A stretch of 64,000 nucleotides of DNA, taken from positions 62,001 through 126,000 of the forward strand of contig JANQPL010000003.1 of NCBI GenBank assembly GCA_028289425.1. The letters run 5' to 3'. This DNA is from Alphaproteobacteria bacterium. Lineage in GTDB: Bacteria; Pseudomonadota; Alphaproteobacteria; JANQMY01. Position 1 is the first letter of the stretch. Each line of letters starts with the position of its first letter. Positions 29,137 to 57,180 of this stretch are shown here, in pieces. Made by a program: the position numbers and the translations under genes. The notes under the pieces are model-generated. The model did no database searches. It was not told the DNA's origin and saw only the letters and a list, made by a program, of their open reading frames with translations.

Positions 29137-30735
29137 TCAAGCCGCCAAAATCATATCCGCGGCCTTCTCCGCAATCATGATCGTGGGGGCGTTGGTGTTG
29201 CCCGACACCACTTCCGGCATGATGGAGGCATCGACCACGTGAAGGTTATCAAGCCCCCGCACTTTGAGGGTGGGGTCCACCACCGCCGCGTCATCCGTGC
29301 CCATCTTGCATGTGCCTACCGGGTGATAAACCGTGTCGGTGCGGTTACGGATTTCCTGTTCGATTTGCTCATCGGTCTGGATATGATCCGTATACAGCGC
29401 CTCCCCCCGTACCGGATCAAAGGCAGGGGATTCCATAATCTGGCGGGTCAGCTTGAAGCCGCGCATCATGGTGTCCATGTCTTCCTGCTCGCCCAGGAAA
29501 TTGGGATCGATCAGGGGCGCCGCCATGGGGTCGACGGTGGAAAGCGTGACCCGTCCCCGGCTTTTCGGCCGCAATACACAGACATGACAGCTAATGCCGT
29601 GGCTCACATGAAGCTTGCGGCCATGATCGTCCACCAAGGCGGGCACGAAGTGAAGCTGCACGTCGGGCCGGGCTTCGGAAGGCTGGGACTTTAGGAATCC
29701 GCCCGCTTCCGCCATATTGCTGGTGAGCAAGCCGTCCTTTTTTCGCATATACGTCGCCAAGCCTTTTACCATCGACCACAGGCCCTGCGGCGTGAAGCCG
29801 ATCGTATCCTTGGACGATGTTTTGTAGGACAGAATGTAGTCCGGATGATCGTGCAGGTTTTCGCCCACGCCTTTGAGGTCGTGCACGATGGAAATACCGC
29901 TATCGCGCAAACGATCGGCCGGACCCACGCCCGACAACATGAGTATCTGCGGCGATTGAAAGGCACCGGCGCTCAAAATGACGCCACGATTGGCGCGCAA
30001 GAATTTTTCTTCCTTGCCCTGACGGACGATCAGACCGGTCGCCTTCTTGCCGTCGAACACGACGCGGCACACCCGTGCCTTTGTTTTAACGTCCAGATTG
30101 GCACGGCTTTCCACAGGGCGCAGATAGGCGGCTGCGGTGCTGTGCCGCTTGCCGTTTTTCTGCGTCACATGATACTGCCCGCAGCCTTCCTGGCTTTCGC
30201 CGTTAAAGTCTTCATTGATGGGAAGCTGCAATTCGCGGGCCGCTTGGAGAAAGTTCCGAACGGTCGGATTGGGCGCCCGCAGGGATGCCACGTTCAACGG
30301 GCCGGCGGTTCCGTGATAATCCGACGCGCCTGCCTCGAAGTTTTCGGCCTTCTTGAAATAGGGCAGCACATCTTCATAGGCCCAGCCCGTATTTCCCAAT
30401 TCCGCCCAGCGGTCATAGTCTTCCTTCTGCCCCCGGATATAGACCATGGCGTTGATGGAACTGGACCCGCCCAGCGTCTTGCCCCGCGGCTGATAACCCA
30501 CACGGCCGTGCAGGCCCGGCTGGGGTGTGGTTTCAAACCCCCAATTGTGGCCCCGGGTCAACAGGCTGACGAGAAAGCCCGACGGCATATGAATGAGCGG
30601 GTTCGAATCGCGGGGCCCTGCCTCCAACAAGCAGACTTTTGTCCCACCGTCGGCGCTCAGGCGGTTCGCCAAAACACAGCCCGCGGATCCCGCGCCGGCG
30701 ATGATGAAATCGAACTGTTCAGACTCCTGTGCCAT
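29137..30735 (-). CDS. GMC-family FAD alcohol/choline dehydrogenase
   Basis: 532 residues. FAD-binding GAGSAGCVLANRLS (13-26), LLEAGP, the GMC signature GKTLGGSSSINAMVYIRG (about 84-101) and the C-terminal catalytic region YHPVGTCKMGT and VSGNTNAPTIMIAEKAAD. It resembles BetA and AlkJ; the family oxidises primary alcohols of many kinds. Position near the P450/epoxide-hydrolase genes suggests oxidation of an alcohol made by those enzymes (inference). Confidence 0.93.
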   Translation of the reverse strand: MAQESEQFDFIIAGAGSAGCVLANRLSADGGTKVCLLEAGPRDSNPLIHMPSGFLVSLLTRGHNWGFETTPQPGLHGRVGYQPRGKTLGGSSSINAMVYIRGQKEDYDRWAELGNTGWAYEDVLPYFKKAENFEAGASDYHGTAGPLNVASLRAPNPTVRNFLQAARELQLPINEDFNGESQEGCGQYHVTQKNGKRHSTAAAYLRPVESRANLDVKTKARVCRVVFDGKKATGLIVRQGKEEKFLRANRGVILSAGAFQSPQILMLSGVGPADRLRDSGISIVHDLKGVGENLHDHPDYILSYKTSSKDTIGFTPQGLWSMVKGLATYMRKKDGLLTSNMAEAGGFLKSQPSEARPDVQLHFVPALVDDHGRKLHVSHGISCHVCVLRPKSRGRVTLSTVDPMAAPLIDPNFLGEQEDMDTMMRGFKLTRQIMESPAFDPVRGEALYTDHIQTDEQIEQEIRNRTDTVYHPVGTCKMGTDDAAVVDPTLKVRGLDNLHVVDASIMPEVVSGNTNAPTIMIAEKAADMILAA

Positions 30736-30889: not shown

Positions 30890-31960
30890 TCACCGTTCCA
30901 AGTCGCACACAAGGACTTTTTCTTCGAACACGGAACCGATGATCAGCTTGTCTTGCCACCGCGCGCCCACGCTGGACCCGGAAATCTGTGTCCCAAGGTC
31001 GAGGTAGATTTCCGTGGCTTCGCCGCCACGTTCGCCCTTTGGCACAAGCTTGATCACTTGAGACGGTGAGATTTCGTCGGGATCGTTTGCGTAGGCCTGG
31101 AAGTCCAGCAGCTTCGGGTGTGCACCGATCCACAGACTGCCGTCGGGATGCACGTCGATATTGTCGAGGCCCGAGGTGATGGGCACTTGCTGGTCCAAGG
31201 TCAGCGCGCCGGTTGCCGGATCGCGATCATAGAACCGTACCATCATGTCGGTAGTTTCCGTCACATAGATCTGCGAGCCATCCGGGCTGCCGTTGATACC
31301 ATTGGCGAAGGTGAGACCTTCCGCCACCAAACGCGACCTGGTGCCGTCGAAATACACCACACTGGATTTGTCCTGACGGAAATAGTCTTCCATGCGACGC
31401 GCCCAGCCGCTTTCGTTGGCGTGATCGTTGGTTGCGTAAAACTGCCGTGGCCCCACCGCATGCACATCATTGGGCGTGATGATGAACTCACCAGTCACGC
31501 TTTCCGTGTGGATCAGATCCCCATTGGCGGCCACATCGAATATTTCGATTATATGGCCACCCGCATTGGGGTGGTTGATGACGAAAAGGCGCTTCGTGCC
31601 GTCATCCCCTTTGTAGAGGCTGATGCCATGGGGCTTAAAGTCCTCGGGCGTGGTGGGAACCACGTCGACCGCCGGTTTGGACAAATCATTGAGATCGAAG
31701 CGCTGCACGGCGCCGCGCACAGGCGTTCCCGCCCGGAACGTCCGCCGGTCATAGGCGGAGGTGAAGACAAAGCCGGTTTCGTGGTCGATTGCGAGGTCTT
31801 CCGGTCCAACGGATGTGGCCACATCCACACAGGCGCCCACCGGATTGGGCCACAGGGTGGTGAACTGATTGAAGTCCATGTAAATGCGAAACACGAAAAT
31901 GCCGACGATCAGGACGAGGACACCCAGCACCGCGCCCGCTCCGATATAGATGTTCCGCAT
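30890..31960 (-). CDS. Paraoxonase/arylesterase-family lactonase with N-terminal membrane anchor
   Basis: 356 residues: a membrane helix (7-27) then a six-bladed propeller. The residues of animal PON1 are found in the same order: Ca ligands E54-D55 (GPEDLAID), N164 (TPNDVHAVG), N220 (TFANGINGSPDG) and D266-N267; the His dyad H111 (PHGISLY) and H130 (VINHPNAG), 19 residues apart as in PON1; and cysteines 44 and 352 at the places of the PON1 disulfide. PON enzymes are calcium-dependent lactonases. The anchor should put the domain in the periplasm. Same strand as, and about 150 bp downstream of nothing but the ABC gene (26 bp), so it probably follows that gene in an operon. Confidence 0.9.
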   Translation of the reverse strand: MRNIYIGAGAVLGVLVLIVGIFVFRIYMDFNQFTTLWPNPVGACVDVATSVGPEDLAIDHETGFVFTSAYDRRTFRAGTPVRGAVQRFDLNDLSKPAVDVVPTTPEDFKPHGISLYKGDDGTKRLFVINHPNAGGHIIEIFDVAANGDLIHTESVTGEFIITPNDVHAVGPRQFYATNDHANESGWARRMEDYFRQDKSSVVYFDGTRSRLVAEGLTFANGINGSPDGSQIYVTETTDMMVRFYDRDPATGALTLDQQVPITSGLDNIDVHPDGSLWIGAHPKLLDFQAYANDPDEISPSQVIKLVPKGERGGEATEIYLDLGTQISGSSVGARWQDKLIIGSVFEEKVLVCDLER

Positions 31961-31986: not shown

Positions 31987-33846
31987 TTACGACGCCGCCA
32001 CCACATCGAGCGATGCGGGCCGATCTTCTTCCGATGCGCCAAACTGCAGGCGGGCAAGCCGCGCATAGAGCCCGCCGGCGCGCACCAGCTCGTCATGGGT
32101 GCCTTCCGCTTCGATCCGACCATTGTTCATGACAATGATACGGTCGGCCTTGAGCACCGTGGCCAGACGGTGGGCAATCACAATCGTCGTGCGGCCTTCC
32201 ATGAGATTGTCGAGGGCGTTTTGAACCAGCCGTTCGCTTTCCGCATCGAGCGCGCTGGTCGCTTCATCCAGCAGCAAGATAGGCGCGTCGCGCAAGATCG
32301 CACGGGCGACCGCAATGCGCTGGCGCTGTCCGCCGGATATGGTGACGCCGCGCTCGCCCATTTGGGTGTCGTATTTTTCAGGCAAGCGTTCGATGAACTC
32401 GTCCGCCTGGGCAGCGCGCGCCGCTGCCTTGATTTCGTCATCGGTTGCGTCCGGCCGACCATAGCGAATGTTCTCGAGTGCCGACATGCCGAAGACCACC
32501 GTATCTTGAGGCACCAGGCTCATCCGCTCGCGAACGTCACGCGGGTCCGCCTCGCGGATGTCTACGCCGTCCACCAGGACGCGGCCGGATTCAGGATCGT
32601 AGAACCGGAGCAGCGCCTGAATGACCGTACTTTTGCCCGCACCGGACGGCCCCACCAATGCCACCGTTTCGCCCGGCGCAATGGAGAGCGAAAAGTCATG
32701 GAGCGCTGCGTGTTCGGGCCGGGCCGGATAGCGCAAGGTCACCTTGTCGAATGCCACCTCGCCTCGCTTCTGTTGCGGCATGGGCGTGGGATTGGCCGGC
32801 GGGCGGATCACCGGCACCACGGCGAGCAACTCCATCAGCCTCTCCGTGGCCCCTGCGGCGCGTTGGATTTCGCCCCAGGTTTCAGAAAGGCCGCCGGCAC
32901 TTGCCGCCAAGATCACGGCGAAAAAGATGAACTGTGCAAGATCACCGCCGGACATGGCGCCCGATTGCACGTCGCTGGCGCCCACCCAAAGCACACCGGC
33001 AATGCCGCCGAACACAATGGTGATGATGAGCGCCGTCAACACGGACCGCGCCGCGACGCGTAGTTTTGCCACGTCGAATGCGCTTTCCACCGCCGCGCCG
33101 AAATGCTGCCGGTCCAGATCTTCATGGGTGAAGGCCTGCACCACGCGGATCGCATTCAGGCTTTCGCCTGCTTGGGCGCTAGTGTCCGCCACACGGTCCT
33201 GACTGCGCCGAGACAGGTTGCGGACCACCCGGCCGAACAAGATCAGCGGCAGCAACACGACCGGCACGCCGATCAGCACCAGCAAGGTAAGCTTGGGGCT
33301 TGTGATCGCCAACATCACCATGGCGCCCACCAACATCAAACTGTTGCGCAAGGCAAAGGAGATGCTTGATCCGATGACGGATTGAATGAGCGTTGTGTCC
33401 GTGGTGAGCCGCGACAGCACTTCGCCCGTACGCGTCACTTCGAAGAATTCCGGGCTGAGGCTGGTGATGTGATTGTAAATGGCCTTACGCAAATCGGCGA
33501 CGATGCGCTCGCCCAAGGTGGTGACAAAGTAGAAGCGGATGCCCGTGGCAACCCCTAAAAGCGCCGCCACGATGAGCAGGAAGCCGAAATACTGGCCGAT
33601 GGCCTCGCTTTGATTGGCGCCGAAGCCATTGTCCACCATGTCGCCGACGGCCACGGGCATGACCAGCGTGAACAGGGTGGAGGCAAGAAGCGCGACGCCG
33701 GCCGCCGTCAGCATGGCCGGATATTGCTTGAGGAACGGCCACATCTTCATGAGCGGCCCCACGCTTTTCGCGGCGGGCCGCCGCTGGGCTTCCTGCTCGA
33801 TGGCTTTGGCGTATTCTTCGCCGGAATGGATGTCCGTTTGGCTCAA
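31987..33846 (-). CDS. MsbA-like ABC exporter (fused membrane and ATPase domains)
   Basis: Six membrane helices (about 40-310) and an ATPase with Walker [10 protein letters not shown], signature [16 protein letters not shown] and Walker [13 protein letters not shown]. The start is most likely TTG at 33846, 8 bases after GGAGA, giving 619 residues ([16 protein letters not shown]); the frame is open for 40 more codons upstream but those are Arg-rich and unlike the family. Homodimeric exporter of lipid or hydrophobic compounds is expected. Next to a TetR gene, an arrangement usual for efflux of a pathway substrate (inference). Confidence 0.9.
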
Positions 33847-33947
33847 TCGACTGCGTCTCCTCGAGCGTTTCCAAGTGATGCGGGTGAGGCGCCAAAGGCG
33901 CCGAACGTTCACCTCACCGTCTGGAAACGCGCAAATCAAAGTATCTG

Positions 33948-33983
33948 GAGCCGTTTTGCGATTCATTAGAATGAAAACGGCTC
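33948..33983. repeat. Inverted repeat upstream of the ABC exporter gene
   Basis: Perfect 10-bp arms GAGCCGTTTT and AAAACGGCTC with a 16-base spacer, about 100 bp before the TTG start and 50 bp after the tetR stop. It could be a tetR terminator without a T-tract or a binding site for a regulator. Confidence 0.5.
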
Positions 33984-34032: not shown

Positions 34033-34734
34033 CTACTGCGACACCTCGCCAATCTCCGCGGTGAGTTGCTGCAGCCGCTTCTTAATCGCGGTTTCATATT
34101 TGCCGGTCACAACGCCGGCAAGGAGGGTCAGCCGAAGGAGTTTTTGCCGGGCCAGCAGCGCTTCGTCGCTGATTTCACCCGCCGCCCAGCGGGTGATGAT
34201 GGCGTAAATCGCCACAGCGGCGTCGCTCGCCAGCAGGTCGATGTTGACCCAGGGGAGCAGCGCCCCTTCCCGCTTTAGCTCCTTCAAGTAGCGGAGGTTT
34301 CCGGCCGCCGCCTGTCCGTGCAGCGTGTCGCGGATCCGGCTGTTAGTATCTTTGCTGAAATAGATGGTGAGCATCTTTTTGGCGTACGCCGGAACCCGCA
34401 GGATCTCTGCGTTGGACAGCTCCTGGGCCCGTTCAATCCGGGCGAGAACCGACCCCTCATCTTTCGGCACCAGCTTTTCGATTCGCTCGACAAACACCGC
34501 CACCACGGCCTGGGCGACCAGCTCATCTTGGCTTTCGAATATGTTGTAGAGGGTCGCCAGGGCCACGCCGCTGCGCTTGGCCAGGTCGCGCATGGTGAAC
34601 TTGCTGTCTTCTTCCACCAGCATCTGCCGTGCGGTCTCCAATATGCGCGCCCGGCGTTCGGCCATGGCATCGCTGGCGTAGCCGGCGCTTCGCCCTGCCT
34701 GTTCTGGTCTGATGGTGGTGCCCGTATCGGCCAT
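34033..34734 (-). CDS. TetR-family transcriptional regulator
   Basis: 233 residues. The N-terminal HTH is RARILETARQML...FTMRDLAKRSGVALATLYNIFESQDELV (28-73); the helical ligand domain follows. Divergent from the epoxide hydrolase gene with a palindrome ATTGGAAC-AC-GTTCCAAT between them, a layout typical for self- and neighbour regulation. The same palindrome core is found twice before the P450 gene. Confidence 0.93.
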   Translation of the reverse strand: MADTGTTIRPEQAGRSAGYASDAMAERRARILETARQMLVEEDSKFTMRDLAKRSGVALATLYNIFESQDELVAQAVVAVFVERIEKLVPKDEGSVLARIERAQELSNAEILRVPAYAKKMLTIYFSKDTNSRIRDTLHGQAAAGNLRYLKELKREGALLPWVNIDLLASDAAVAIYAIITRWAAGEISDEALLARQKLLRLTLLAGVVTGKYETAIKKRLQQLTAEIGEVSQ

Positions 34735-34787
34735 ATTGCCTTTATCGCTCCTTGCCCTTGAGTTTCACCATAACAGATTCTATAAAG

Positions 34788-34805
34788 ATTGGAACACGTT
34801 CCAAT
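34788..34805. promoter_or_regulatory. Putative TetR operator at the tetR/epoxide hydrolase junction
   Basis: 18-bp palindrome ATTGGAACACGTTCCAAT, perfect apart from its central AC. It is 54 bp from the tetR start. The core GAAC-N2-GTTC is shared with the sites at 35858 and 35877. Confidence 0.75.
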
Positions 34806-34834: not shown

Positions 34835-34907
34835 CCTCCCCGCTCCCCCGTCCCAACCACCCCAAGGGTACCCTGTTTCGGGTGGTTGGGACGGGGGAGC
34901 GGGGAGG
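34835..34907. repeat. Long GC-rich palindrome, copy 2 of the dispersed family
   Basis: Arms of 28 bases match perfectly (left begins CCTCCCCGCTCCCCCGTCCC) round AAGGGTACCCTGTTTCG. Compared with copy 1 the outer arm differs (CCTCCCC against CCATCCC) but the partner arm has changed to match. It lies in the divergent gap between tetR and the epoxide hydrolase gene, 34 bp before the latter, and would fold in its 5' leader. Confidence 0.9.
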
Positions 34908-34940: not shown

Positions 34941-35369
34941 ATGTCCATCGAAGACCAAAGCATCCAAACCGTGCTCGATTTTTTGAAGGCGCTGGAAGGC
35001 GGCACGAAGCAACATGTGCGCGATGCCTACGACAATTATTTCGCGGACAACTGCATCTATCAGAATTCCGGTCTGCCGGACATGGATAAGCCCGCCACCA
35101 TGGAATTCTTCTTCAGCGACATGGAGGGCGAACAGGGCATTGTCAAACTGGTCGCCGACATTACGCACATCGCCGCCAAGGGGAATGTGGTGTTCACGGA
35201 ACGTGTGGATCATCACTTCGACAAGGACGGCAACGATATTCTCACACCGTCGATTTGCGGCATCTTCGAAGTAGAGAACGGCAAATTTAAGCGGTGGGCG
35301 GACTATTTCGACCCTAATCCCATGCTGCATCTGTTCGGTATGGACGAAAGCCAGCAAGCCGCGGAATAG
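34941..35369 (+). CDS. Limonene-1,2-epoxide hydrolase-type enzyme
   Basis: 142 residues of SnoaL/NTF2-like fold. The catalytic set of limonene epoxide hydrolase is present: Y40 and N42 (IYQNSG), R88 and D90 (FTERVDHHF), and D121 (FKRWADYFD); the R-x-D spacing and 31-residue gap from the first to the second Asp equal those of LEH (Arg99, Asp101, Asp132). It hydrates epoxides to trans-diols by a one-step mechanism. GGGAGG precedes the ATG. First gene of a plus-strand operon with a PaaI thioesterase; both lie behind the TetR operator. Confidence 0.88.
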   Translation: MSIEDQSIQTVLDFLKALEGGTKQHVRDAYDNYFADNCIYQNSGLPDMDKPATMEFFFSDMEGEQGIVKLVADITHIAAKGNVVFTERVDHHFDKDGNDILTPSICGIFEVENGKFKRWADYFDPNPMLHLFGMDESQQAAE

Positions 35370-35388
35370 GTCGTAGATTGAAAGCATC

Positions 35389-35805
35389 ATGACCGACATT
35401 CCAGAGGGCTTTAAGCCCGCCCGCTTCGACGGCCAATATCTCCACCATGTGGGCCCCTATTACACCAAGAAAACCGACGACACGGTGTTGGTGGGCCTGC
35501 CGGTGAGCGACCACCACATCAATTATGTGGACATCGCCCATGGTGGCATTCTGACCACGCTCGCGGATGTAGCTTTGAGCTTTCAGGTCTTCTTGATCGA
35601 ACGGCCTGCGCCGATGGTCACCACCGTCAGTCTGACCACGAATTTTTTGGGCGCGGTCAAGCTGGGCGATTTTTTGATTGCCGATGGGTACATCGACCGT
35701 TTGGGAAAACGCCTGGCCTACACCCATGGCACCATTCGGCGCGGCGACGATCTGGTGATGACCATGAACGGTGTTTTCAACGTACAGCGTCGATCCAAAA
35801 CATAA
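35389..35805 (+). CDS. PaaI-type hot-dog thioesterase
   Basis: 138 residues. The acyl-CoA thioesterase fold is indicated by NYVDIAHGGILTTLADVALSF with the catalytic Asp region, and VTTVSLTTNFLGAVKLGDFLIADG. Hydrolyses acyl-CoA thioesters; substrate unknown. 19 bp after the epoxide hydrolase gene, so co-transcribed. Confidence 0.88.
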   Translation: MTDIPEGFKPARFDGQYLHHVGPYYTKKTDDTVLVGLPVSDHHINYVDIAHGGILTTLADVALSFQVFLIERPAPMVTTVSLTTNFLGAVKLGDFLIADGYIDRLGKRLAYTHGTIRRGDDLVMTMNGVFNVQRRSKT

Positions 35806-35857
35806 CCTCCTTACCAGAAGCGCAGGATTCGGCGGGAAATTCCATCTTGCCAAAAAT

Positions 35858-35871
35858 TAGAACGTGTTCTA
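35858..35871. promoter_or_regulatory. Putative TetR operator 1 before the P450 gene
   Basis: TAGAACGTGTTCTA: perfect palindrome arms around GT, matching the GAAC-N2-GTTC core at the tetR junction. Centre 19 bp from the next site. Confidence 0.7.
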
Positions 35872-35876
35872 GAATA

Positions 35877-35890
35877 TAGAACATGTTCTA
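35877..35890. promoter_or_regulatory. Putative TetR operator 2 before the P450 gene
   Basis: TAGAACATGTTCTA, a perfect 14-bp palindrome 55 bp before the P450 start codon. Two tandem sites suggest cooperative control by two dimers. Confidence 0.7.
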
Positions 35891-35944
35891 ATTTTGAACC
35901 CAAAAGGCCGCAGCACAAGACGGCCATGAGACGGGAGAGAAAAC

Positions 35945-37192
35945 ATGGCGCAAGCGCTCGCCGAACAAAGTCTGCTGAACCCGCAGACTCAGCAGTGCCC
36001 CTTCAGCTTTTACAAACAAGTGCGCGAAGAAGCGCCCGTGTACTACATGCCCGACATGGGGATGTATCTGATCACCTCCTACGATCTGATGCGCGACGTG
36101 CTGAAGGACTCGGAGACCTTTTCCAACCGGATTCCGGAATTGGGCGCCAACTCAATGTCCCACTTCGAAAAGGCGGAGAAAATCATCAAAGAAAAAGGCT
36201 TTGGACGGTTTATGCCGACCATCGTCAATAACGACCCGCCCGGCCACGGCGTTTACCGCGGTCTGGTGGACCAAGCGTTTCGCGCCGGCCGCATCCGTCA
36301 GATGGAATCCTATGTGGAACAAATCGTCGGTGAGCTGATCGATTCGTTCGAGAACGATGGAGCCTGCGAAGCCATTTCTCAATTCGCCGTGCCCGTGCCC
36401 ATGTATGTGATCGCCGACCAACTGGGCGTGCCGCGGGAAAATTTCCAGCGTTTCAAAGAATGGTCCGATGCCTGGGTCGCAGGGCTTGGTTTGCCGAAGC
36501 CGGAAGCAGAGATGGTGGAAGCGGCCGAGCTGATCGTGGAAATGCAGCATTACATGATCGAGCGCATTCATGAGCGCCGCAAAGACCCCCAGAACGACAT
36601 GCTGTCGGACTTGGCTCAAGCCACTTACAATGGCGAGCGGCCCTTGGAAGACCGGGAAGTGTTGTCAATCGTCGAGCAGATCCTGGTGGCCGGGAACGAA
36701 ACGACAACCAATGGCATCGGCAATGGCTTACTGACGCTTGCGAAAAACCGCCACGTGCAAGACCGGATTCGGACAGCCCCGGACCTCATCACCAAATTCA
36801 CCGAGGAAGTGTTGCGCTGGGAATCGCCGGTTCAAGGGCTATTCCGGTATGCCAAAAAGAATACGACCCTAGCGGGCGTTGAGATTCCGAAAGGATCGCG
36901 CCTGATGGTCCGCTATGCCGCCGCCAACCGGGACCCTTCCAAATTCGAATGCCCCGAAGATTTGAATATCGACCGCAAGAATAACGGGGCGCATCTGGCC
37001 TTCGGCTCCGGCATTCATCACTGCGTGGGATCTCAGCTTGCGCGGGTGGAGATGCAAGCAAGCTTCAAAGCGTGGCTCGCCCGCTTTTCGTCATTTGAAC
37101 TGGACCAGCCCGAAGACACCATTCAATATCATTTGAGCTTTGCGTTGCGGGGGCCCCAATCTCTCAAACTAAAATTTGCCGCTGCGAACTAA
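35945..37192 (+). CDS. Bacterial cytochrome P450
   Basis: 415 residues, class I soluble type. I-helix AGNETTT, K-helix EEVLRWES, and haem loop FGSGIHHCVGSQLAR with Cys360. An N-terminal substrate-recognition stretch ends in NNDPPGHGVYRGLVDQAFR, as in CYP families that act on terpenes, sterols or fatty acids. Ferredoxin and reductase partners are not in the window. Start follows GGAGAGAAAAC. Controlled by two GAAC-N2-GTTC sites just upstream; 16 bp before the Rieske oxygenase. Confidence 0.94.
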   Translation: MAQALAEQSLLNPQTQQCPFSFYKQVREEAPVYYMPDMGMYLITSYDLMRDVLKDSETFSNRIPELGANSMSHFEKAEKIIKEKGFGRFMPTIVNNDPPGHGVYRGLVDQAFRAGRIRQMESYVEQIVGELIDSFENDGACEAISQFAVPVPMYVIADQLGVPRENFQRFKEWSDAWVAGLGLPKPEAEMVEAAELIVEMQHYMIERIHERRKDPQNDMLSDLAQATYNGERPLEDREVLSIVEQILVAGNETTTNGIGNGLLTLAKNRHVQDRIRTAPDLITKFTEEVLRWESPVQGLFRYAKKNTTLAGVEIPKGSRLMVRYAAANRDPSKFECPEDLNIDRKNNGAHLAFGSGIHHCVGSQLARVEMQASFKAWLARFSSFELDQPEDTIQYHLSFALRGPQSLKLKFAAAN

Positions 37193-37208
37193 GTAAGCGA
37201 GGAACGCC

Positions 37209-38486
37209 ATGGGACAACTTAACGTCAAACAAATCCGTGATCTGATGGAATACGAAGCCAGCCGGACGGCGCCGCCGGAAGGTTTCCCCAACCTGCCGGA
37301 TCTGCCGGGCGGGCGGTATACGGATCAACGGTTTTATGATCTGGAGAAGGAGCACATTTGGCGTAAGTCATGGCTCTTTGCCGGACACATTGACGAGATC
37401 CCCGAACCGGGCTGCTTTATGTTGTGGGAAAACGCCGGCCAGCCCGTGGTGATCGTTCACGCAGAAAGCGGCGACGTAAACGCCTTCTACAACACCTGCA
37501 GTCATCGCGGCGCGCCGGTCGTCACCGACCAAAAAGGCAAACGCAAATTGTTGGTCTGCCGCTACCATGGTTGGAGTTATACCCATGACGGCGATCTTGT
37601 GGCCATTCGCGATCCGGAGGATTTCGGCAAGGATTTTGATTTCAAATGCCGCGGCTTGACCAAAGTGCGCTGCGAGCGGTTCGGCAACTTAATCTGGGTG
37701 AATTTCGACCCCGACGCCATGTCCCTGCTCGACTGGTTGGGACCCATCGCCGATGAGTGGAAGGAATTTCAGTTCGAAAATTGCCGCCTGGCCCAGCGCC
37801 ATACCTGGGACCTCAATTGCAATTGGAAGATTGCCATGGAGGCGAACACTGAGGTCTATCACGTCAAAAGCATTCACCCGAATACGGTCTCGCCCATCTT
37901 GGACGACCGGCGGAATGTGAACACGTTCTACCCGAACGGACATGGGCGCATGATTGCGCCGGCACCAGGCGGTGAGAAACTACCAGGCGGTATGCGGCCC
38001 GCCCCCCATGTGGGCGAAATCGAAACGGTCGGCGAGATTGGCCGCACCTGCACCCAGTCCTACGGCATTTTCCCCAATTGGGTGTCGCCGTTGAGTAACT
38101 TCTACATCCCGCCGCTTCTGTTCTGGCCGCTTGCCATCAACAAAACCCGGTTCGAGACCTTTACCTTCGCGCCCCAATGGGGCGACGGCCCCGCCCCCGA
38201 TTTGTGGACGCAAGAGGGCAAGGAACTCAGCCAGGTGTTGCAGGAAGATACGGAGTTTGGCCTGTGGATTCAGAAGTCAGTCGAATCCTATGGCTTCAAG
38301 GGCGTACCGCTCAGCTATCAAGAAGCGCGCATCTACCACTGGAACCAAGCCGCCGACAAAATGATCGGTATCGAGAACATTCCGCCCGAGCTGCGGGTGC
38401 AACAGGTGATCGGCGATGAATGGATCTATCCCAACGATCCACGGGTCGCGTTGATGGAGAAATCAAATGCCGTCGGTGTCGATTGA
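37209..38486 (+). CDS. Rieske non-haem iron oxygenase, alpha subunit
   Basis: 425 residues. Rieske [2Fe-2S] ligands C97-H99 (NTCSHRGA) and C117-H120 (CRYHGWSY); mononuclear iron His218 and His223 in EANTEVYHVKSIHPNT. Belongs with aromatic ring-hydroxylating and related monooxygenase alpha subunits. There is no beta subunit gene next to it; the following SRPBCC gene overlaps by 20 bp. Substrate unknown. Confidence 0.93.
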   Translation: MGQLNVKQIRDLMEYEASRTAPPEGFPNLPDLPGGRYTDQRFYDLEKEHIWRKSWLFAGHIDEIPEPGCFMLWENAGQPVVIVHAESGDVNAFYNTCSHRGAPVVTDQKGKRKLLVCRYHGWSYTHDGDLVAIRDPEDFGKDFDFKCRGLTKVRCERFGNLIWVNFDPDAMSLLDWLGPIADEWKEFQFENCRLAQRHTWDLNCNWKIAMEANTEVYHVKSIHPNTVSPILDDRRNVNTFYPNGHGRMIAPAPGGEKLPGGMRPAPHVGEIETVGEIGRTCTQSYGIFPNWVSPLSNFYIPPLLFWPLAINKTRFETFTFAPQWGDGPAPDLWTQEGKELSQVLQEDTEFGLWIQKSVESYGFKGVPLSYQEARIYHWNQAADKMIGIENIPPELRVQQVIGDEWIYPNDPRVALMEKSNAVGVD

Positions 38487-38898
38487 CCGCATTATAGACT
38501 TCGCCCCGGACACAGTTTGGGCCGTGCTGGCAGACTTCGGCGCCTTTCGCGAGTGGGCCATGGGCGGTGAAGGCTCCATTAAAGTGGAAGGCGACGGCCC
38601 CGGCATGGTGCGACTGTTGGACGTGCCTGGTATGGGCGAAATAGCGGAACGGCTGGACAAGGCGGATGGGGATAATCACCATCTGGTTTACTCCCTGTTC
38701 CACGGCAATCCGCTGGGCATGGCGCGCTACACAGCCAATGTGCATCTTTCACCCGAAGCCGGGGGCAAGTGCAAAGTTTCCTGGCACGGAGAATTCGACG
38801 CCATGCCGGACGCCGACCCGGCAACGGTGGGTGAGAACTTGCGCGGCTCCTATAACGGCATGACCGATGCGCTTGCGGCTTATCTGGCCGCCAAATAG
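38467..38898 (+). CDS. SRPBCC (START-like) small protein
   Basis: 143 residues with a helix-grip fold: IDRIIDFAPDTVWAVLADFGAFREW, GMVRLLDVPGMGEIAERLD, CKVSWHGEFDAMPD. Polyketide cyclase/dehydrase-like lipid-binding family. It overlaps the Rieske gene, so the two are translationally coupled; it might shuttle or fold a hydrophobic substrate (inference). Confidence 0.82.
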   Translation: MPSVSIDRIIDFAPDTVWAVLADFGAFREWAMGGEGSIKVEGDGPGMVRLLDVPGMGEIAERLDKADGDNHHLVYSLFHGNPLGMARYTANVHLSPEAGGKCKVSWHGEFDAMPDADPATVGENLRGSYNGMTDALAAYLAAK

Positions 38899-38955
38899 TC
38901 CTTGATCGCACGCACCGAATGACGTGACATAGCCGCCAAAGAGCGGAGGTGTCAC

Positions 38956-39774
38956 ATGTCACAAACGGACCAACAAACCATCTTCATCACCGGCGGTGCC
39001 AGCGGCATGGGCCGCGCCACGGCGGAATTGTTCGCAGGCAAAGGATGGTTCGTGGGCATCTTCGATGTGGACGAACAGGGCCTGAAAGAAACCGCCGCCA
39101 GGATCGGGGAAGACAATTGTCTTGCGCGCCGATTGGATGTGACCGACACGCAAGATTTCATGGCCGCCATGTCGTCCTTCAACGAACGGACGAAGGGCCG
39201 CATGGACATCATGTTCAATAATGCGGGGATCGCCCCCAGCGCCTGGTTCGACGAAATGCCGCTGGAACAGATGCGCCGGATCATCGATATCAATGTGATG
39301 GGCGTGATTATCGGAGCGAAACTGGCCCTGCCTTTATTGCGCGACACCCCCAATTCGATCTGCATCAGCACGTCGTCTTCCGCTGCCACTTACGGCCATG
39401 CGCTGCTGGCCGTTTACAGCGCGTCCAAATTCGCCGTGAAAGGTCTGACCGAAGCGCTGAGCCTAGAGTTTGGGCGCTTTGGCGTACGCACGGCGGATAT
39501 CCTGCCCGGCTGCATCGACACCCCCATGCTGCGCAATGCACTGGCCGCGCCAACCGGGCAACCGTTTACCGAGGAATTGTTCGCCAACCTGCCGCAAGAC
39601 GGTGCCTACCGTTTGGTGCCCGTTTCCGCCATTACCGATGCGGTTTGGGGCGCGTACAATTCCGACCAAATCCATTGGTATGTGCCGGAAGAGGTGGGCG
39701 ATATCGACCGCCTCAAAGGCACCGACTTCAACGCGGCGCGGGATGAAACGAAGGCGTTTTCGTTTCGGGAGTAG
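38956..39774 (+). CDS. Short-chain dehydrogenase/reductase
   Basis: 272 residues. Nucleotide site TGGASGMGRATAELF, NNAG at NNAGIAPSAW, the Ser of SSSAATYG and active-site Y-x-x-x-K in YSASKFAVKG. Fifth gene of the P450 operon (57 bp after the SRPBCC gene), probably oxidising an alcohol produced by the oxygenases. Confidence 0.93.
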   Translation: MSQTDQQTIFITGGASGMGRATAELFAGKGWFVGIFDVDEQGLKETAARIGEDNCLARRLDVTDTQDFMAAMSSFNERTKGRMDIMFNNAGIAPSAWFDEMPLEQMRRIIDINVMGVIIGAKLALPLLRDTPNSICISTSSSAATYGHALLAVYSASKFAVKGLTEALSLEFGRFGVRTADILPGCIDTPMLRNALAAPTGQPFTEELFANLPQDGAYRLVPVSAITDAVWGAYNSDQIHWYVPEEVGDIDRLKGTDFNAARDETKAFSFRE

Positions 39775-42170: not shown

Positions 42171-42327
42171 ATCGCATCGTCGTCACGATAGGCAGTCTCT
42201 CAAATCAGTGAGAGCAGTACCATCGAATTGAAACACAAAACTGCTTTACGAGTTGTTTGCCTCGTTCTCGGGAACAGAGCATGCCACCCGAATAACCGCC
42301 GTCCCAATCTGCCGAGGGAGCATTGCC

Positions 42328-43236
42328 ATGACCATCACCTATAAGCGCTGGACCGGCTTGGGCCTGACAGCAGCCCTTATCGCGGGCTGCGGCGATCCAG
42401 AGCCCACCGCTGCCGAAAAGACGGTCGACGAACAGCCGACAGCCATCGAAGGGGAAGCTGGAGAGGCGGCGGAAGCAGGCGAGGCCGCCGTGCCCGCCAT
42501 CACCGAAAACGGCCAGGCCGGTGAAGCTGGTGAAGGCGAAGGGGGTGAAGGTGGCGAAGGCACAGGTGGTGAAGGCGGCGAAGGCGGCATTGTTGTCGAC
42601 CTGGCCGCCACGGATCCGGTGGTCTTCAAATCGGGCCTTGCCATTGTGGAAGCCCATGTGATCGCCGCGCGCGATGCCTTTGCCATTGGCCGCACCGAGG
42701 CTGCGGGGGAAATGTTCGCCCATCCCGTCGCAGAAGTGCTGGTGGATATGGAAGAAGTGCTAACGGCCCAGGGCGTTGAGCCCTTCGAAGACTTGCTGGT
42801 CCAAGCGTCGGAGGCCGCCTATGCGGATGGCACGACAGCCGAAACCATCAACCAAATGTCCGATGCCATCATCGCCGCGCTTAATGCCGCCGCAGAAAAA
42901 GCACCGGCCAGCGTTCTGCCTTTGGGCGCCGTGCAGGCCGGTGTTGTTGCCGACCAGGTGGAACGGGCTGTGGATCAATACAGATACGCCATCGAGAATG
43001 AGGAATACGGCCCCTATCTTGACGGTTATGGCTATTACAAGACGGCTGCTGCCGTGAATGAACGGTCCAGTGCCGACATCCTGGCCGCTAATGACCGCGC
43101 TGCCGCGGCTATTTCCGATGCACTGGAAGTGCTGGCAGCAGCCTATCCCAGCGCCGAGCGGCCCGAGACCCTTGATGCTGACCAAGGTGCCCTGTTGGCG
43201 GCCAGTTCCCGGGTGAAACTGGCGCTCGACAACTGA
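42328..43236 (+). CDS. Unknown lipoprotein with Gly-Glu linker, iron region
   Basis: 302 residues from the ATG at 42328, preceded by GAGGGAG. Signal peptide with lipobox LIAGC (Cys22 region), then a highly acidic linker of Gly-Glu-Ala repeats (about 35-85), then an all-helical domain with conserved-looking VDLAATDPVVFKSGLAIVE, FAHPVAEVLVDMEEVL, and YAIENEEYGPYLDGYGYYKTAAAV. The helical part is reminiscent of imelysin/EfeO-type iron proteins but the motif is not clear enough to assign. Sits behind a Fur-type site. Long linker and lipid anchor predict an outer- or inner-membrane-tethered periplasmic binder (inference). Confidence 0.75.
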   Translation: MTITYKRWTGLGLTAALIAGCGDPEPTAAEKTVDEQPTAIEGEAGEAAEAGEAAVPAITENGQAGEAGEGEGGEGGEGTGGEGGEGGIVVDLAATDPVVFKSGLAIVEAHVIAARDAFAIGRTEAAGEMFAHPVAEVLVDMEEVLTAQGVEPFEDLLVQASEAAYADGTTAETINQMSDAIIAALNAAAEKAPASVLPLGAVQAGVVADQVERAVDQYRYAIENEEYGPYLDGYGYYKTAAAVNERSSADILAANDRAAAAISDALEVLAAAYPSAERPETLDADQGALLAASSRVKLALDN

Positions 43237-55551: not shown

Positions 55552-57180
55552 ATGGCGCACAACCCCTATGAAATGGATCTCGACAAGAACGACGCCAATC
55601 ACCAGGCCTTATCGCCCTTGTCGTTTCTGCGCCGCACCGCCACCGTCTTTCCCGACCACACCGCCGTCATTCACGGTCAGCAGCGGTACACTTATCGTGA
55701 ATTCTACGAGCGCGCCTGCCGGCTGGGCTCGGCCCTAAAGGCCCGCGGCATCGGCTTGGGCCATACGGTCGCGATGATCTGCCCGAACATTCCGCCCATG
55801 CTGGAAGCCCATTACGGCGTGCCCATGATCGGCGCCGTGATCAACACGATCAATTACCGGCTTGACGCGGCAGCGATCGCCTTCATCCTCGATCACGGGG
55901 AAGCCAAAGTGGTGATCGTCGATAAAGAGTTTTCCGCACTGGCTAAAGAGGCCCTGTCCTTGTGCGAAACCAAACCCTTGGTCATCGGTGTGGATGACCC
56001 AGAATATCCGGGCGGCGAACTGATCGGCGAGATGGACTACGAAGCGTTTATCGCCGACGGGGACCCGGACCTGGACTGGTCGCTGCCGGTGGACGAATGG
56101 CAGGCCATCGCTCTTAACTACACATCGGGAACCACCGGCAACCCGAAAGGCGTGGTGTACCACCATCGGGGGGCTTATCTGCTGGCCATGGGCAATGTGG
56201 TGACGGCCTCGATGCAGCAACATCCGACTTATTTGTGGACGCTGCCCATGTTCCACTGCAATGGTTGGTGTTTCACCTGGTCGCTCAGCGTGCTTGCGGG
56301 CACCCATGTGTGTTTGCGGCGGGTCGAGCCGGGGCCCATTTTCGACGCGCTGGCCGAGCACAAAGTGACCCATCTGTGCGGCGCCCCCATCGTCATGGGC
56401 ATGCTCGTCAATGCCACCGACGAAGAAAGAAAACCCCTGCCCCACACGGTCAATTTTTTCACCGCCGCGGCTCCGCCGCCTGCCGCGGTCATCGCCAAAA
56501 TCGAGGCACAGGGATTCTTTATTACCCATCTTTATGGCCTGACCGAAACCTATGGCCCTGCCGTGGTCAATGCCTGGCACCGGGAATGGGATTCGCTGCC
56601 CGATGACGAACGGGCGCGCGTAAAGGCGCGCCAGGGGGTTCCCTATGAAGTGCTGGAAAATCTATCCGTGCGGGACCCGGAAACCATGCAGCCCGTGCCC
56701 AAAGATGGCGAGACCATGGGCGAAGTGATGTTCCGCGGCAATGTGGTCATGAAAGGGTATTTGAAAAACCCGAAAGCAACCAAAGAAGCATTCGGCTATG
56801 GCTGGTTTCATTCGGGCGACTTGGGCGTGTGGCACCCGGACGGCTACATCCAGCTCAAAGACCGCTCGAAAGACATCATCATTTCCGGCGGCGAGAACAT
56901 TTCGTCCATCGAAGTGGAAGATACGCTGTACAAACACCCCTCGATCCAGGCGGCCGCCGTCGTGGCGCGGCCGGATGAAAAATGGGGCGAAACACCCGTT
57001 GCCTTTATCGAGACGAAGCCCGGCATAGAGGATTTGTCGGAGGAGGCGGTCATCGCGTTTTGCCGCGACAATCTTGCGCACTATAAATGTCCGCGCACTG
57101 TCGTGTTCGCGGAACTTCCCAAGACGTCAACGGGTAAGATCCAAAAATTTAAACTGCGGGACAAGGCGCGCGCTATGTAA
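55552..57180 (+). CDS. AMP-forming acyl-CoA synthetase
   Basis: 542 residues. AMP-binding motif YTSGTTGNPKGVVYHHRG, LYGLTETYGPAV, GYMKNPKATKEAF-like (here GYLKNPKATKEAF), YIQLKDRSKDIIISGGENIS and the C-terminal Lys in KTSTGKIQKF. Best fits medium-chain or aryl acyl-CoA ligases. Followed by a 73-bp gap to the DUF465 gene. Confidence 0.93.
   Translation: MAHNPYEMDLDKNDANHQALSPLSFLRRTATVFPDHTAVIHGQQRYTYREFYERACRLGSALKARGIGLGHTVAMICPNIPPMLEAHYGVPMIGAVINTINYRLDAAAIAFILDHGEAKVVIVDKEFSALAKEALSLCETKPLVIGVDDPEYPGGELIGEMDYEAFIADGDPDLDWSLPVDEWQAIALNYTSGTTGNPKGVVYHHRGAYLLAMGNVVTASMQQHPTYLWTLPMFHCNGWCFTWSLSVLAGTHVCLRRVEPGPIFDALAEHKVTHLCGAPIVMGMLVNATDEERKPLPHTVNFFTAAAPPPAAVIAKIEAQGFFITHLYGLTETYGPAVVNAWHREWDSLPDDERARVKARQGVPYEVLENLSVRDPETMQPVPKDGETMGEVMFRGNVVMKGYLKNPKATKEAFGYGWFHSGDLGVWHPDGYIQLKDRSKDIIISGGENISSIEVEDTLYKHPSIQAAAVVARPDEKWGETPVAFIETKPGIEDLSEEAVIAFCRDNLAHYKCPRTVVFAELPKTSTGKIQKFKLRDKARAM

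Follow-up and report, generated by a model that had tools for sequence, protein, structure and literature searches.

A predicted TetR regulon combining a cytochrome P450, an alpha-only Rieske oxygenase and an epoxide hydrolase in an alphaproteobacterial genome

Limonene degradation in Rhodococcus employs a limonene monooxygenase, a limonene-1,2-epoxide hydrolase (LEH), a diol dehydrogenase and a Baeyer-Villiger monooxygenase (BVMO). The dit clusters for abietane diterpenoids in Pseudomonas abietaniphila and Paraburkholderia contain a P450 gene, ditQ, and the Rieske dioxygenase genes ditA (PMC10710418), and the KstR repressor of cholesterol catabolism in mycobacteria recognizes operators of the consensus TnnAACnnGTTnnA (PMC1995591). 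Among Rieske oxygenases, a bridging glutamate instead of an aspartate is a trait of the Group V (quaternary-amine) enzymes (PMC7948474), some of which carry a Cys-X-X-Cys pair beside the mononuclear iron (PMC10952381). The present analysis concerns a locus that can be compared with these systems, located at positions 34941-39774, together with the adjoining leftward genes, of a 64,000-nucleotide stretch (hereafter the window) from the 5.4-Mb genome of a marine-type alphaproteobacterium. A first-pass annotation had described it as a candidate terpene-like degradation set. We give about an even chance to the reading that its genes form a single TetR regulon, induced by the substrate, whose enzymes attack a lipophilic alicyclic compound oxidatively; a steroid or a terpenoid is the likeliest such compound.

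Predicted operators and gene content

The rightward run from 34941 encodes, in order, an LEH, a thioesterase, a P450, a Rieske oxygenase, an SRPBCC protein and a short-chain dehydrogenase (SDR), and the leftward run from 34734 encodes a TetR-family regulator, an ABC exporter, a paraoxonase-like lactonase and a GMC oxidoreductase. Comparison of the intergenic regions revealed a palindrome, ATTGGAACACGTTCCAAT, between the TetR and LEH genes and two like copies in tandem, 19 bp apart, before the P450 gene. The search pattern drawn from these sites, TTRGAACRYGTTCYAA, matched the window three times at no more than one mismatch, against 0.02 matches expected, and the same three sites, all within one 1.1-kb stretch, were the only ones in the whole genome. 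In the genome of a sister species, the same threshold gave three sites at the matching promoters and none besides, the 19-bp tandem being repeated there at C56:1674/1693. Because both species have the same three operator sites and no others, a single TetR regulon probably comprises the whole block. This predicted operator, common to both units, is the strongest new evidence obtained and supports the earlier proposal of one functional gene set. The features of the locus are as follows:

29137..30735, minus strand: GMC-family FAD oxidoreductase, choline-dehydrogenase/alcohol-oxidase like (Pfam GMC_oxred_N 188.9 and C 145.7 bits)
30890..31960, minus strand: lactonase of the paraoxonase/arylesterase type, with a single hydrophobic stretch at the N-terminal end (Pfam Arylesterase 72.2 bits, cut-off 21.3; orthologue in the sister species)
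31987..33966, minus strand: MsbA-related half-size ABC exporter (TIGR02204 883 bits, cut-off 780; orthologue in the sister species)
34033..34734, minus strand: TetR-family regulator, presumed locus repressor (TetR_N 30.8 bits)
34789..34804: predicted operator 1, TTGGAACACGTTCCAA, between TetR and LEH
34941..35369, plus strand: LEH, limonene-1,2-epoxide-hydrolase family (Pfam LEH 63.9 bits, cut-off 24)
35389..35805, plus strand: hotdog-fold 4HBT thioesterase (Pfam 4HBT 51.3 bits)
35857..35872: predicted operator 2a, TTAGAACGTGTTCTAG, in the spacer/-10 region of the P450 promoter
35876..35891: predicted operator 2b, ATAGAACATGTTCTAA, 19 bp downstream of 2a
35945..37192, plus strand: cytochrome P450 (Pfam p450 124.2 bits)
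37209..38486, plus strand: alpha-only Rieske non-heme iron oxygenase with a GbcA/CntA-like N-terminal half (Rieske 58.2, Ring_hydroxyl_A 76.0 bits)
38467..38898, plus strand: SRPBCC protein, polyketide cyclase/dehydrase-like, START-type, overlapping the end of the Rieske gene (Polyketide_cyc2 76.2 bits)
38956..39774, plus strand: SDR (adh_short 152.7 bits; NF006123/PRK08267 302 bits, cut-off 261)

Operator 1 overlaps the -35 box of the TetR gene (minus strand) and directly follows the LEH -10 box TATAAA (34781-34786), while operators 2a and 2b overlap the promoter-like TTGCCA-17-TAGAAT of the P450 gene (-35 at 35847, -10 at 35870). Matches with two mismatches in the window genome were no more frequent than in a reversed-pattern control, and such extra sites were treated as noise. 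The best homologues of the regulator occur in genomes G092 (48%) and G340 (42%), in both cases beside Rieske/P450 genes, and the next paralogue in the window genome reaches 33%. Similar tandem palindromes, 20 bp apart, lie between the TetR homologue and the P450 gene of G340, with weaker ones in G092 and in some gammaproteobacterial loci where TetR and P450 genes adjoin. All three window operators fit the KstR consensus (TGGAACACGTTCCA, TAGAACGTGTTCTA and TAGAACATGTTCTA). At the same time, the regulator does not pass the KstR model NF033703 (26 bits, cut-off 280), and its match to KstR in the PDB is confined to the helix-turn-helix (19 bits); KstR orthology was rejected, since the model and the PDB match cover the DNA-binding domain only.

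On the basis of gene order, enzyme families, catalytic residues and the conserved operators, the following course can be proposed. Without inducer, TetR bound to operator 1 would silence its own gene and the LEH and thioesterase genes, and TetR bound to the tandem 2a/2b would silence the P450-Rieske-SRPBCC-SDR genes. On induction, the P450 and the alpha-only Rieske oxygenase would add two separate oxygen functions, the resulting alcohols would be oxidized by the SDR and GMC enzymes, and LEH would hydrate an epoxide arising en route. The lactonase and the thioesterase would open lactones and release acyl-CoA, respectively, the ABC protein may export the substrate or intermediates, and the products would enter a separate steroid-ring pathway of the same genome.

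Successive gaps in the rightward run measure about 20, 140, 17, -19 and 58 bp, and all genes between 34941 and 39774 have intact reading frames and score above their Pfam cut-offs, so the families originally named for this interval are confirmed. The GMC gene is the last of the leftward unit, the closest chains of known structure belong to GMC alcohol/choline oxidoreductases, and its orthologue in the sister species stands in the same order. The alignment of the lactonase with PON1 spans 300 residues and takes in both histidines of the catalytic dyad as well as the motifs that bind calcium (FKPHGIS, INHP, PEDL, PNDV, ANGIN and LDNI). Both genes, cited in the first-pass annotation as lying nearby, are real, but they lie outside 34941-39774, on the opposite strand, behind the TetR and ABC exporter genes. 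The acyl-CoA ligase that it had also drawn into the set is found at 55552-57180, 16 kb away amid unrelated genes, and was rejected as a member because an ABC pair, DUF429, zinc alcohol dehydrogenase, TrcR and TauE genes intervene.

By its domain and residues, the window hydrolase is assigned to the limonene-1,2-epoxide-hydrolase family. Its Y40, N42, R88, D90 and D121 align with Y53, N55, R99, D101 and D132 in the limonene epoxide hydrolase of known structure, the motifs being internally gap-free, so the complete catalytic pentad claimed from the start (Tyr53-Asn55-Arg99-Asp101-Asp132; residue roles in PMC3734700) is preserved in a protein that is only distantly related to that structure (1NWW, E 4e-8). 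Both iron-binding motifs are present in the Rieske protein, whose E215 falls on Glu205, the bridging residue, in the alignment with CntA. The CntA-type Cys pair was not found in the alignment (E-V-Y-H versus E-C-Y-H in CntA), and the score with the GbcA model was 153 bits versus a cut-off of 670; identification as a Group V quaternary-amine oxygenase was not adopted, as the Cys pair is absent. The Rieske gene has the P450 and SRPBCC genes as neighbours, and family scans gave no beta subunit, ferredoxin or reductase beside it, so the adjacent beta subunit and ferredoxin of alpha-beta arene ring-hydroxylating dioxygenases are lacking. Since none of these genes is adjacent, we infer that the enzyme consists of alpha subunits only and draws its electrons from redox partners shared with other systems.

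Between operator 1 and the LEH start, a 73-bp element (34835-34907) contains a perfect 28-bp inverted repeat. Its interpretation as a special regulatory hairpin was rejected, because it is one copy of a dispersed repeat with about 40 close copies genome-wide. The sister species has no such element at this position, and it could impede LEH expression in the window genome. Downstream of the locus, a reading frame at 42253-43236 has a lipoprotein-like start and long Gly/Glu-rich repeats (GEAGEGEGGEG...), with no Pfam family match.

The P450-Rieske pair in related genomes

In the sister species, one contig carries GMC-PON-ABC-patatin-TetR/LEH-SDR-thioesterase and another carries TetR2/SDR-P450-Rieske-SRPBCC-SDR (the slash marks a divergent boundary); the two extra SDR genes, after LEH and before the P450, are not present in the window genome. 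The thioesterase orthologue there adjoins LEH-SDR, and a 62% identical homologue lies near a Rieske-P450 locus of Litorirhabdus. The SRPBCC protein likewise has an orthologue in the sister species, and a 43% identical homologue is encoded between the P450 and Rieske genes of G340, where the order is TetR/P450-SRPBCC-Rieske. In the f40 family (four genomes and one contig of a metagenome-assembled genome), the P450-Rieske pair is kept (63-65% and 51-59% identical) and is followed by VOC, CaiB-type CoA-transferase, EthD and MFS genes. The pair is kept in five other alphaproteobacterial loci, and Rieske-P450 adjacency recurs in Gammaproteobacteria. When Rieske loci were split at 50% identity, a P450 gene was located within 2.5 kb in 18 of the 61 close loci (≥50%) versus none of the 24 distant ones (<50%; Fisher p 0.002, counts phylogenetically non-independent), and a TetR homologue accompanied 11/61 versus 0/24 (Fisher p 0.03, shared descent uncorrected).

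The window P450 is sister to the Rieske-paired P450s of f40 with 100/100 support, while gammaproteobacterial partners form a separate clade, so that the P450 partners come from at least two lineages. In the Rieske tree, the window enzyme and that of G092 are inside a group that also holds gammaproteobacterial enzymes, and seven changes of P450 adjacency are required, six of them forced by supported branches. An exchange of P450 partners would account for the two trees most simply. G092 itself (L049:16306-18909) has an 87% identical Rieske gene without an adjoining P450; the genes after it, for an alpha/beta hydrolase, a luciferase-like monooxygenase and a DSBA-type protein, are an alternative partner set. 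Note that records L112, L114, L075 and L105 are titled Candidatus Kuenenia, Rhizobium sp. Q54 and Klebsiella pneumoniae, although their Rieske/P450 loci group with alpha-/gammaproteobacterial relatives and L112 equals G263:C14 in length and gene content; these titles look mislabelled.

This distribution indicates that the core of the cluster is the P450 together with the Rieske oxygenase. The closest LEH relative outside the genus (57%, among 385 class members) is on another contig than the P450-Rieske locus of its genome, and no close LEH was found at any P450-Rieske locus examined outside the genus. LEH was rejected as a core gene for this reason; it has been added locally, within this genus, to a P450-Rieske module of wider distribution. 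A remote LEH-family gene in the gammaproteobacterium UBA2965 (L066:8274-8723), with Trp replacing the catalytic Tyr53, is located upstream of a Rieske gene (76% identical), at a distance of two genes. The conservation of the block, one of the points on which the first-pass annotation would have it stand or fall, holds for the P450-Rieske pair in relatives and for GMC-PON-ABC-TetR/LEH-HBT in the sister species, but LEH lacks P450-Rieske company outside the genus. More tentatively, this Rieske lineage of marine Alpha-/Gammaproteobacteria and sphingomonads may regularly take a P450 partner, the Rieske enzyme being kept and the P450 swapped, often with a TetR and an AACnnGTT-type operator, as a modular two-oxygenase route into steroid- or terpenoid-like rings to which an epoxide hydrolase has been added here; we consider this possible rather than probable.

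Substrate and competing explanations

The genome contains a compact steroid-ring cluster elsewhere (G000:C12:43812-57441, i.e., L198:1813-15442) with genes of the KstD, KshA, HsaA, HsaD and HsaC types and a second KstD gene, along with a TonB receptor and an FAD dehydrogenase. The NCBIfam scores are below the equivalog cut-offs and Pfam KshA_C is above its own, and the cluster predicts that the lineage degrades steroids. In Sphingomonadaceae, close Rieske homologues are found at a distance of about 1 kb from genes for FAD dehydrogenases whose nearest relatives are 4-oxocyclohexanecarboxylate/ketosteroid dehydrogenases. Due to this neighbourhood, the steroid-ring cluster and the KstR-like operator, we favour an alicyclic candidate substrate of the steroid or terpenoid kind. 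Limonene itself is an unlikely substrate. A Rhodococcus-like limonene pathway (epoxidation, LEH hydration, diol dehydrogenation, lactone formation and opening) would suit the SDR, the lactonase and the complete catalytic set of LEH, but, in agreement with the first-pass annotation as regards the BVMO, the scan of the genes between 26753 and 48677 gave neither BVMO nor flavin limonene monooxygenase domains, the CoA ligase is unlinked, and LEH is distant from the solved enzyme and missing from P450-Rieske loci outside the genus. The strict form of this pathway was rejected for want of the two monooxygenases, and the pathway as such is very unlikely; a terpene-specific interpretation is not supported either, the pointers to steroids being at least as strong.

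Detoxification with efflux, in which TetR senses a toxic lipophile that the enzymes modify and the ABC exporter expels with no carbon gain, is unlikely as well. A TetR gene beside an ABC exporter, an epoxide hydrolase and a lactonase suits xenobiotic defence, and no ring-cleavage or beta-oxidation genes occur within the block; however, two oxygenases with an SDR, SRPBCC protein and thioesterase exceed the usual simple detoxification, and in relatives the P450-Rieske pair is accompanied by CoA-transferase, EthD, MFS and acyl-CoA dehydrogenase genes, which is a catabolic setting. The same catabolic genes, and the breakdown indicated by the lactonase, epoxide hydrolase and thioesterase, make it highly improbable that the locus tailors an oxidized isoprenoid or polyketide lipid for export; the P450, Rieske, SRPBCC (polyketide-cyclase family) and ABC exporter genes would fit that role, but no terpene cyclase or polyketide synthase was present among the genes scanned around the locus. 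It is also quite unlikely that two or three unrelated neighbours (TetR-ABC-PON-GMC, LEH-thioesterase and P450-Rieske-SRPBCC-SDR) have position alone in common. The window genome has 38 P450, more than 100 SDR and at least 18 Rieske places, as well as four LEH-like places, only two of which keep the catalytic set; with this abundance, P450 and SDR genes are expected near each other now and then, and their co-occurrence is weak evidence by itself. The separate sister contigs, each with extra genes (an SDR after LEH; TetR2 and an SDR before the P450), also suit unrelated units. The set is lifted above chance by conservation in relatives and by the operator, which is common to both units in two species and absent elsewhere at up to one mismatch. 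For a genome of 5.4 Mb, these P450 and SDR numbers amount to a rich oxidative repertoire.

Several points weigh against a single TetR regulon for an alicyclic substrate. The operator count in the window genome is partly circular, because the pattern was derived from these very sites; the sister genome and G340 give independent support, the former being limited by close relationship (96% Rieske identity). Since the regulator resembles KstR in the DNA-binding domain only, the operator match may be just a common TetR motif, and no operator was found in the examined stretch of the steroid-ring cluster. The LEH and P450 units of the sister species lie on different contigs (C56 and C542), and the adjacency counts carry the effect of common descent mentioned above. 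Finally, the block has no ferredoxin or reductase gene.

Comparison with described systems

Each of these enzyme types is familiar, but their combination is not known from a described system. The literature searched held no description of recurring pairing of a P450 with an alpha-only Rieske oxygenase in uncultured marine bacteria, only an unrelated review for degradation clusters with LEH, Rieske and P450 genes, and nothing for Rieske, P450 and TetR in Halieaceae. If real, the regulon would explain this recurring pairing, and its tight operator set would make the identity of the substrate directly testable.

With Rhodococcus limonene degradation, the locus shares an LEH-family hydrolase with identical catalytic residues; the hydrolase is remote here, and a P450 and a Rieske oxygenase stand in place of the flavin limonene monooxygenase and BVMO. 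The window Rieske enzyme is similar to the GbcA/CntA (Group V) monooxygenases in being alpha-only and in its N-terminal half and bridging glutamate, but it lacks Cys-X-X-Cys beside the iron site, and its C-terminal half is unmatched by the GbcA model. The dit clusters, compared by their described gene content, place a P450 (ditQ) and a Rieske oxygenase (ditA) in a catabolic cluster for an alicyclic isoprenoid; theirs is an alpha-beta dioxygenase with its own ferredoxin, whereas a Rieske alpha protein is present here with no ditA2/A3-like genes adjacent and with additional LEH, lactonase and thioesterase genes. The mycobacterial KstR regulon is genome-wide, in contrast to three operators at one locus under a TetR that is not a KstR orthologue. 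At the same time, the operators fit, a TetR-type repressor controls its own gene and oxygenase genes (here presumably), and the window genome also has genes of the KstD/KshA/Hsa type.

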